Assembly: GCA_937868455.1 (NCBI GenBank)
Contig: CALMMO010000271.1
Span: 1-12,455 of the forward strand
Length of the DNA: 12,455 nucleotides
DNA from: an uncultured Marmoricola sp.
GTDB lineage: Bacteria; Actinomycetota; Actinomycetes; Propionibacteriales; Nocardioidaceae
Reading direction: 5' to 3'
The first letter of the stretch is position 1; the number at the start of each line of letters is the position of its first letter. Shown in pieces: positions 4,196 through 8,722 of the stretch. Under the pieces are notes generated by a model. It saw only the letters and a program-made list of their open reading frames with translations. It was not told the origin of the DNA and did not search any database. The translations under genes and the position numbers were made by a program.

Positions 4196-5116
4196 TCACC
4201 CACGAAAGATCCACGAGATCGCGAAGATCACGGGCACCGAGGCAAAGGTGCTCACGAAGATCGCGTCGCGGATCAAGGGGACCGATCGCTGATAGCGCAT
4301 CGCCAGGGTGAAGATGTTCTGTGCGGTGGGCAAAGCCGCGGCCACGCATACGGCGTACAACTGATGCCCGTGCAACCCGAAGGCCACACCGATGGCAGCC
4401 GCCGCGAGTGGTTGGGCCACGAGTTTGAGCGCCACCAAGGTCGCGATCAGCGGCGATGAGCCGTGGGCGCCAGGTCGCGGGCCAAGGCGCAGTGACACGC
4501 CAAACGAGAGCAGCATGGCTGGCACCGCGATGTTGCCGATGAGTTCGATGGGCCGCAGCACTAGCTCAGGCACGTGCACCTGTGAGACCGAAATGACCAA
4601 CCCGATCACCGAGCCGATCGTGATCGGGTTACGCAATGCGGTTTTGATCAGAGTCCACGGACGTGGGCGCAGCCCGGCCTGCTCCCCGTCGAGCAGGCTC
4701 AAACACACCGGAGTGAAGATGAGCAGTTGGAAGAGCAGCACTGGGGCCATCAAACTCACATCGCCCAGCACATAGGCCGCAACCGGGATGCCAAGGTTCG
4801 CGGAGTTGACGTAGGTCGCGGCCATCGATCCCAGCACCCGATCACTGGTGCTCAGCGACCAGCGGCGACTGATCAGCCACCACAATCCGATGCCTGGCAC
4901 GACGCTCAGTGCCGAGGCAGCCAGCATGGGTGAGAGCACCCCAGAGAGAGGAGTGCGCGCCAAGATCACCAGCAACAATGCAGGTGTGGCGACAAAGAAG
5001 GCCACTCGCGAGAGCAAGTGTTGAGCGACCTCATCGAGCACTCCGCGCCACGCCAAGAGATAACCCACAGCCACCACCACGGTGATCGTGGAGAAGCCTG
5101 CGAGTACGTCGAGCAC
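4196..5116 (-). CDS. AEC-family (auxin efflux carrier-like) permease
   Basis: 306-residue inner-membrane transporter of the AEC family (Pfam Mem_trans), whose bacterial members move small carboxylates such as malate or malonate; this one's substrate is unknown. About ten hydrophobic segments are visible. The conserved N-rich motif TYVNSANLGIPVAAYVLGD (residues 101-119) falls in the middle helices, and AAALPTAQNIFTLAMRY is the matching motif near the C-terminus. The start is uncertain: the GTG at 5116 gives (M)LDVLAGFSTI, close to typical family N-termini, while a GTG at 5140 would add 8 residues; neither has a good ribosome site. The gene ends 40 nt before galE on the same strand, so it may be the first gene of that run, and it diverges from leuS. 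Confidence 0.88.
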   Translation of the reverse strand: MLDVLAGFSTITVVVAVGYLLAWRGVLDEVAQHLLSRVAFFVATPALLLVILARTPLSGVLSPMLAASALSVVPGIGLWWLISRRWSLSTSDRVLGSMAATYVNSANLGIPVAAYVLGDVSLMAPVLLFQLLIFTPVCLSLLDGEQAGLRPRPWTLIKTALRNPITIGSVIGLVISVSQVHVPELVLRPIELIGNIAVPAMLLSFGVSLRLGPRPGAHGSSPLIATLVALKLVAQPLAAAAIGVAFGLHGHQLYAVCVAAALPTAQNIFTLAMRYQRSVPLIRDAIFVSTFASVPVIFAISWIFRG

Positions 5117-5190
5117 AGCCCGATCCAAGCACGCTCGCACTCACCCAGCAGCCGATGTCCACGGGTGCCAGCGCCGAGCGCCGCCTCGGG

Positions 5191-5196
5191 TAGCAT
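5191..5196 (+). promoter_or_regulatory. Candidate -10 hexamer of the leuS leader promoter
   Basis: TAGCAT fits the TANNNT form of actinobacterial housekeeping -10 boxes. The GTG at 5204 begins 7 nt after it, the spacing expected for a transcript starting exactly at that codon. I see no convincing -35 match 16-18 nt upstream. The same bases contain the ATG at 5195, so if this is the promoter that ATG is not transcribed. Confidence 0.4.
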
Positions 5197-5230
5197 GACC
5201 CTCGTGTCAACCAACCTCCTGCTTACATAG
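5195..5230 (+). CDS. Leucine-rich leader peptide of leuS
   Basis: Small ORF MTLVSTNLLLT ending in TAG at 5228-5230, with three consecutive leucine codons CTC CTG CTT at 5216-5224. If the start is instead the leaderless GTG at 5204, the peptide is MSTNLLLT; both readings share frame and stop. The ORF lies just upstream of a stem-loop that begins within its stop codon and of an intrinsic terminator, all ahead of leuS. Function is inferred: the ribosome would sense charged tRNA-Leu on the leucine run and control read-through into leuS, as leucine-rich leader peptides do for leucine biosynthesis genes. A peptide this short has no family evidence of its own; its position and composition are the case for it. 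Confidence 0.68.
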   Translation: MTLVSTNLLLT

Positions 5231-5253
5231 CCGCACGGAACTTTCGTGCGGCT
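5229..5253 (+). promoter_or_regulatory. Leader stem-loop after the leucine peptide
   Basis: AGCCGCACG at 5229-5237 pairs perfectly with CGTGCGGCT at 5245-5253, a 9-bp stem. G5238-T5244 and A5239-T5243 can extend it. The 5' arm begins inside the leader stop codon, so a ribosome at the leucine codons or at the stop would block or permit this stem. It would serve as the pause or 1:2 hairpin of an attenuator. Confidence 0.65.
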
Positions 5254-5279
5254 GCCCCTCCTGTGCGAGGGGCTTTTCT
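5254..5279 (+). terminator. leuS: Intrinsic terminator (attenuator) ahead of leuS
   Basis: GCCCCTC at 5254-5260 pairs with GAGGGGC at 5267-5273 across a 6-nt loop, giving 7 bp with six G-C pairs, followed at once by TTTTCT at 5274-5279. No plus-strand gene other than the leader peptide precedes it, because the AEC gene is divergent, so it can only terminate transcripts begun in the leader. That makes an attenuator much more likely than an ordinary gene-end terminator. The T-run is short, so termination may be partial. Confidence 0.72.
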
Positions 5280-5312
5280 ATGTCCAGGAGATGCCAGAGA
5301 TGAGAGACGAAG

Positions 5313-7783
<2,471 letters not shown>

Positions 7784-7787
<4 letters not shown>

Positions 7788-8722
7788 GACGAGCGACGGG
7801 CACTAGCCACGACGGCGACCCCGATCAAGGTCAAGGCTGCGGCGACGTACGTCGAGGTCATGACCTGATCGGGCGCCACGATCAGATCGACCACCAATGC
7901 TGTGCTGACCTGCCCGCACACGCTGGCTAGGCCAAATGTGAGCACCCCAATCACGCGTACGGCGATCGACGCAGTCGCAATGAAGGCCACCCCGATCAGC
8001 CCGCCTAGATAGAGCCACGGCGCGCTCGGCAAACCGCGCACCGCGCCTGGCAACACGTGGGACATCGCAAAGGCGATCACCAAGGCGATCCACCCGACCA
8101 GGAAGTTGTTCCAGGTGGCCACCCCAGCGCTGCTGTGAATCGCGACTTGGCCGTTGATGGCTTGCTGCACTGAGGTGGCCGCACCCGCCAGCAAGGGGAG
8201 CAGGGCCAGCCACAGCACCAGGTGAGATGGGATCGAACCGGTCAGGACACCGGTCGAGACGATCACCGCGATGAGTGTGATGAGCGCTCCGATGACGCGA
8301 AGCGCGGAGACGTGGGATCGCCCAGCGGGGCCGAGCCCGATGTGGTCTACCCACAGCGCTGAAGCCGTCGATCCGGCGACGATGGCAACCACGAAGAGTG
8401 AGACTCCAATGGTGGAAACCGTGATGCCTTGCGATGCCACCAGCAGTGCGCCAGCAGTGCCGCCCAGGAGTTTCCAGCGTGCCAACGTGCTCGTGCGGTG
8501 CAGGCGGCGCAGTTGAGCCCGCCAGCTAGGCAGCACCAGCAACGCGATGGTGAGCACGACCAGACCGGTGCCGAAGCTAATCACCGCGGCCAGCACACCT
8601 GCGCGCGCTCCGGAGCCCAATCGATGGGCCAACTCGCCGTTGATCGCGGTCTGCAGCGTGACCAGGGCGCCAACGACCACGCTCCCGGTCAGGGCAAACA
8701 CTTTCGATCTCGGCACCCGCAC
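7784..8722 (-). CDS. DMT-superfamily permease (DUF606/YdcZ type)
   Basis: 312-residue inner-membrane protein with about ten hydrophobic segments in two repeated halves: [16 protein letters not shown] near residues 23-38 and [15 protein letters not shown] in the second half occupy equivalent places. This Q-x-x-x-N-G repeat is characteristic of the DUF606/YdcZ branch of the drug/metabolite transporter superfamily, here as a fused two-repeat form; substrates are largely unknown. The likely start is the GTG at 8722, with a second in-frame GTG two codons later at 8716; neither has a firm ribosome site. The stop (TAG) overlaps the leuS stop by 4 nt, and the gene diverges from the PfkB kinase. Confidence 0.85.

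Follow-up and report, generated by a model that had tools for sequence, protein, structure and literature searches.

Attenuators of the leucyl-tRNA synthetase gene leuS have been predicted in Streptomyces avermitilis and S. coelicolor by Seliverstov et al. 2005 (PMC1262725), who also mark an antiterminator hairpin for them in a figure. In S. lividans the leuS leader, leuL2, is leaderless, encodes MRAVRLLLSEPR, and is followed by a hairpin and a U-run (Droste et al. 2021, PMC8079986). Among the leaders of branched-chain genes, the hairpin that adjoins the terminator is the antiterminator in Corynebacterium glutamicum ilvBNC (Ryabchenko et al. 2025, PMC11857589), and the same logic, with a hairpin beside the terminator as antiterminator, has been described for Mycobacterium tuberculosis ilvB1 (PMC13236596). 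Codon substitutions were without effect in a related leader, that of S. coelicolor ilvB (PMC1262725), and this counts against an attenuator reading. The leader of the enteric leu operon carries rare leucine codons, which have been explained by selective charging of tRNA isoacceptors (PMC1183508). The accessible parts of PMC11109978, PMC2965389 and PMC4046766 do not mention leuS.

Our analysis concerns a 12,455-nucleotide stretch of DNA from an uncultured Marmoricola sp. (contig CALMMO010000271.1; "the window" below), in which leuS is very probably controlled by a ribosome-mediated transcription attenuator. An earlier note on this DNA had read the region before leuS in this way, and it was right in kind: the leucine codon run, the stems and the T-run are all conserved before leuS. 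A conserved run of leucine codons, leucine being the substrate of LeuS, lies within a leader reading frame, and a predicted terminator that is both conserved and covarying lies between that reading frame and the gene.

The leader region upstream of leuS

The controlled gene, leuS, occupies positions 5313–7787 of the plus strand and matches the leucyl-tRNA synthetase model TIGR00396 with 936 bits (cut-off 548). The closest named record for its product is the LeuS of an uncultured Marmoricola MAG (87% identical), and by its LeuS relatives the genome falls near Nocardioides and Marmoricola. An auxin-efflux-carrier-like membrane protein (TIGR00946, 93 bits, below the cut-off of 246) is encoded divergently at 4196–5140 of the minus strand, 172 nt from leuS; this ORF bounds the intergenic region and is no part of the switch. 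Its presence bears out the statement of the earlier note that the terminator sits between divergent genes, and because it is divergent the terminator is the end of no upstream plus-strand gene; a gene-end role for the terminator is ruled out by this neighbour together with the conservation described below. Downstream, a 312-amino acid ORF without an NCBIfam match (7784–8722, minus strand) is convergent with leuS.

The tiny reading frame with CTC CTG CTT in a row that the earlier note had described can be read on the plus strand, with these presumably regulatory codons at 5216–5224, followed by ACA and by the stop codon TAG at 5228–5230. The start proposed for it at ATG 5195 is probably not the true one, since this ATG overlaps a presumed −10 box (TAGCAT, 5191–5196, plus strand; the same box is found in relatives) that lies 7 nt before a GTG at 5204. 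The transcript is therefore probably leaderless, with its leader peptide starting at GTG 5204, and comparison with relatives likewise points to a reading frame at 5204–5230 (GTG TCA ACC AAC CTC CTG CTT ACA TAG) that would encode MSTNLLLT*. A simple sigma-70 scan found no promoter at the leader and no −35 match.

Two adjoining hairpins are predicted between the leucine codons and leuS, both on the plus strand. Hairpin P1 (5228–5254), which folding places with arms at 5228–5239 and 5243–5254, begins in the stop codon; the 9-bp stem that had been drawn from the stop codon exists, but it is only the core of this predicted 12-bp helix. The second, the intrinsic-terminator-like hairpin T (5254–5279 with its T-run), has the arms GCCCCTC at 5254–5260 and GAGGGGC at 5267–5273, and TTTTCT follows it directly at 5274–5279; this 7-bp GC stem with its T-run, which had been seen by inspection, was also found by a terminator scan. 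Taken by itself, the folding energy is only mildly unusual (z −1.9, with 7 of 200 shuffles equally stable). At the gathering score Rfam 15 contains no T-box or other family that matches the window or any of six related loci, and a permissive Rfam scan of 5100–5400 returned two matches only, both at chance level.

Conservation and spread of the element

The comparison covered 100 non-redundant leuS upstream regions of relatives, after removal of ten duplicates and of L085, which has no upstream sequence. A strict pattern of leucine codons, P1 start and terminator is matched by 84 of these, and a covariance model built from 50 of the 84 (R1) recovers five of the remaining 16 (E values 6e-16 to 2e-8). 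Conservation of the leucine codons, stems and T-run, whose absence in close relatives would by the earlier note's own criterion have refuted its reading, thus extends to 89 of the 100 regions, with covariation of both stems, and the element is missing from the other 11. Three loci (L059, L066 and L072) were moved by one codon to the correct register before the codon, folding and swap analyses. In an alignment that comprises 50 sequences with 16 base pairs, 95.9% of the cells are paired, and both-sided changes occur in nine of the 16 pairs (five of the nine helix pairs of P1 and four of the seven of T), which was reached by none of 500 shuffles; when the partner is slid by 1–3 columns, pairing falls to 40–58%. 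The shuffles ignore relatedness, and the slid controls preserve it. The linker between P1 and T is 0–2 nt in all 84 loci, and the two hairpins have no base in common in 63 loci and one in 21.

Across the class, R1 (E ≤ 0.001) matches 95 of 197 genomes, representing 52 of 91 genera, a genome count that includes some genes other than leuS because leuS is in reach at only 70 of the 91 class loci (L112–L202, the window included). A second set of 61 loci was taken from these 70 by leaving out the window itself (L112), seven loci without a readable core and one duplicate; eight of the 61 come from the window's own family. One group of class loci encodes the leader MRAVRLLLSEPR upstream of leuS. At L120, L123, L132, L135 and similar loci the same attenuator stands before a LeuRS that is 38–42% identical to that of the window (first 400 residues), and the leader therefore accompanies two LeuRS types.

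A TANNNT box ends 6–7 nt ahead of the leader ATG or GTG in all 83 readable relatives of the 84 (the upstream sequence of L079 is too short) and stands at the same spacing in all 61 loci of the second set, a regularity that is partly due to selection, because our script picked the start with the best TANNNT box. The leader peptides have two main forms. The stop codon is at the foot of P1 in 38 of the 84 loci (LLLT*, LLLA*, LLLS* and similar), 9 nt further on in 45 (mostly LLLxQPR*), and 12 nt further on in one. TAG and CAG, which alternate at one position of the RNA, are one base apart, and so the tail of the peptide appears to be determined by the RNA.

The choice of leucine codons is constrained as well. 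The last leucine codon of the leader is CTT in 76 of the 84 loci and CTC in eight, and in the second set CTT in 53 of 61 and CTC in eight; among the 77 loci whose scanned stretch holds three leucine codons, CTC or CTT fills the second place in 74 and the third place in all 77, and in the second set it fills the second place in 37 of 54. CTT makes up 0.7% of the 5441 leucine codons in the leuS genes of these loci (CTG makes up 84%), and 20 of the 357 leucine codons counted over nine coding regions in the window. The genome to which the window belongs carries a gene for tRNA-Leu(GAG), the tRNA that reads CUU and CUC. Conservation of the rare CTT makes it testable whether the leuS leader reads a single tRNA isoacceptor.

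Twenty R1 matches were read individually, 18 of them at loci without leuS in reach (there are 21 such loci among the 91; L121, L129 and L182 were left out). Fourteen of the 20 stand before cimA (L183–L191, L194, L195, L199, L200 and L202), three before ilvB (L192, L193 and L197) and two before leuS (L198 and L201). The last, L113, is unassigned; this second R1 match in the window's own genome (G000:C209, E 0.155) was set aside for want of a recognisable leader. The cimA leaders carry isoleucine codons (MLHHVIIIR*, MQHRHIVIP* and MQSALIIT* are examples) and a P1 that abuts the terminator, and they covary, with both-sided changes in eight of 16 pairs, matched by none of 500 shuffles. In two CimA pieces the citramalate synthase model TIGR00977 is the best one, with scores that stay under its cut-off, the sequences being partial; the cimA of the window's own genome is cut at a contig end. 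A model of the cimA leaders, R2, matches 104 of 148 class genomes, which is no count of cimA leaders because R2 also matches some leuS leaders; of 30 R2 loci that were fetched, 24 have a CimA motif, one an IlvB motif, and five none of the three motifs sought. The ilvB leaders have the same layout with isoleucine, leucine and valine codons (MRLGILVLH*, for example). Attenuators of ilvB are already known; what is added here is the occurrence of the leuS layout, with isoleucine codons, before cimA. The accessible literature that pairs citramalate or cimA with a leader peptide or attenuation held no report of such a leader.

Several features of individual loci may be recorded here. In L051, L064, L091 and L093, which lack the attenuator, a TATCCT box seems by eye to stand immediately before the start of leuS (a leaderless leuS), and L013, also without the attenuator, has the start of a leucine-codon leader and no terminator. 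L033, from a record named Ruania rhizosphaerae, has the same attenuator as the window and a LeuS that shares 80% identity with the window's LeuS, nearer to it than that of many Nocardioides; horizontal transfer or a misnamed record are possible explanations. Seven genomes of the same order (G042, G044, G047, G049, G052, G055 and G057) contain a second leuS-like gene a few kb from the first. Most of the loci inspected have an [A/G]TG after the T-run (CATG or TGTG; 5278–5283 in the window), and by eye no reading frame from it into leuS is kept in these loci.

Proposed action of P1 on the terminator

Transcription would start at or beside the GTG, and a ribosome would read MSTNLLLT from the leaderless mRNA. 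With ample charged tRNA-Leu this ribosome would reach the stop codon, inside the 5' arm of P1, and hold P1 open, T would then form, and most transcripts would stop near 5279. With scarce charged tRNA-Leu, above all of the CUU- and CUC-reading isoacceptor, it would stall on the leucine codons, so that P1 could form, T would fail and leuS would be transcribed. The footprint of a ribosome covers the 5' arm of P1 from the stop codon and not from the first leucine codon. We infer the leaderless start, the termination and the leucine response.

How P1 acts on T is the least certain step, because the two hairpins abut without competing for bases. When folds were calculated with the ribosome placed on each leucine codon and on the stop codon, T was predicted everywhere, with a single locus of the 84 below 0.5 in one placement. 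Swap tests of the P1 loop, the P1 arms and the leucine run against the arms of T gave no coevolution of the kind expected from an overlapping antiterminator; for the leucine run against the 3' arm of T, z was −0.8 or −2.6 depending on the test window, and a control that was expected to be null (the leucine run against mid-P1) gave a weak signal (p 0.045). With the 5' arm of P1 masked and the 3' arm of T absent, eight of the 84 loci pair the 5' arm of T by more than half, and in 14 loci inspected T returns once its 3' arm is present. At most one common base, a T that forms in all placements and the lack of coevolution mean that P1 works sterically or kinetically, that its role is the reverse of the one given above, or that folding misses the switch. 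Of these we give somewhat more weight to the first, in which P1 would obstruct the polymerase at its RNA exit, sterically or kinetically.

The reversed role is a rather unlikely competitor. P1 would in that case form after the ribosome has left the stop codon and would aid termination as an anti-antiterminator, and a ribosome stalled on the last leucine codon would cover the foot of P1, with something unseen here as the antiterminator. In favour of this role, it is the second and third leucine codons, CTC or CTT, that are most constrained. Since a ribosome footprint extends about 12–13 nt beyond the codon in the A site, the invariant GCCGC of P1 would be covered while the third leucine codon is being read. 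For C. glutamicum ilvBNC a hairpin that acts in this way has been described (PMC11857589). Against this, T still forms when the foot of P1 is masked, and no conserved alternative pairing appears. That the whole arrangement is a chance ORF beside an ordinary terminator, or hairpins without a regulatory role, is extremely improbable: short ORFs with leucine runs are common and the fold beats its shuffles only mildly, but conservation with covariation in relatives and the divergent neighbour contradict such an origin.

Another alternative, which we consider improbable, is translation attenuation by way of a tentative base stem, P0 (5216–5290, plus strand), suggested by folding and pairing statistics, in which CTCCTG and ACATAG (5216–5230) can pair with CAGGAG and CTATGT (5278–5290), 5216–5221 with 5285–5290 and 5225–5230 with 5278–5283. 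P0 would close a three-way junction, and a stalled ribosome would open it and so favour translation of leuS or survival of its mRNA; the LEU element of leuA has been suggested to act through its base stem in a similar way (PMC1262725). The pairing of the leucine codons with the stretch after the U-tract is suggestive: it amounts to a 13-nt match in the window, and in 83 loci a sequence pairs better with its own partner than with swapped ones, with z −6.5, −6.4 and −4.5 in the three test windows nearest T (down to −1.3 further from T), while swap controls off the leucine run and the post-terminator stretch give z −2.3 to +3.0. The 61 further loci give z −3.3 and −3.4, but a slid control in the same loci also reaches −3.3. 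For the window sequence 6 to 13 of the 84 partners (itself counted) pair equally well, when partners are exchanged between nearest relatives p is 0.0017 or 0.32 according to the test window, and the pairing register differs among loci. The AGGAG engaged in P0 is separated by 22 nt from the downstream leuS ATG, swap tests of the leucine run against the stretch before leuS give no signal, and translation attenuation leaves the conserved terminator unexplained.

Returning to transcription attenuation with a steric or kinetic block, the leaders before leuS (leucine codons), cimA (isoleucine codons) and ilvB (isoleucine, leucine and valine codons) might be versions of one compact switch common to Actinomycetes, in which a hairpin at or near the leader stop codon abuts the terminator without base competition and the decision is steric or kinetic, the leuS version reading mainly tRNA-Leu(GAG) through CUU and CUC; we offer this generalisation tentatively and think it less likely than not. 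With P1 and T abutting within 0–2 nt, the question of how attenuation could work without an antiterminator that overlaps the terminator becomes accessible to experiment.

Relation to described leaders

Attenuation of leuS through leucine codons, in print for a few Streptomyces, is predicted here to occur widely across the class, and the present analysis supplies a covariance model of it. The attenuator of the enteric leu operon has codons and stems other than those of the leuS leader, and it controls biosynthesis, whereas the leuS leader here would control the synthetase itself. The two are alike in that the enteric attenuator, with its rare CUA codons, also senses by way of rare leucine codons (PMC1183508). 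The LEU element of leuA combines a leucine-codon leader with a base stem that involves the leucine codons, of which P0 is a possible counterpart (PMC1262725). The LEU base stem takes in the Shine-Dalgarno sequence of its gene and encloses a pseudoknot, whereas P0 would enclose a terminator, with the leuS start further off, and would stop short of the leuS ribosome site.

The leaders of C. glutamicum ilvBNC and M. tuberculosis ilvB1 resemble the leuS leader in their branched-chain codons and in having a hairpin, there the antiterminator, beside the terminator, and the C. glutamicum leader, as is likely for the leuS one, adjoins its transcription start (PMC11857589). In C. glutamicum ilvBNC a GCC belongs to both the antiterminator and the terminator, whereas P1 and T of leuS have no common base in most of the loci (the 63 of 84 given above).

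The Streptomyces leuS leaders, leuL2 among them, are closest, with a leucine-codon leader, a hairpin and a terminator before leuS as in the window, where the spacing of the −10 box also fits a leaderless transcript like that of leuL2. Loci matched by R1 share the core RNA with leuL2, and some of them encode the printed peptide MRAVRLLLSEPR (PMC8079986). The published Streptomyces leader ends in LLLSEPR*, whereas the ORF of the window, from another genus and family, ends in LLLT* with its TAG at the foot of P1. An antiterminator hairpin is marked for the Streptomyces leuS leaders (PMC1262725), whereas no conserved one that overlaps T was found in the relatives analysed here. The leuS element of the window is thus a new instance, outside Streptomyces, of an attenuator whose kind is already published.
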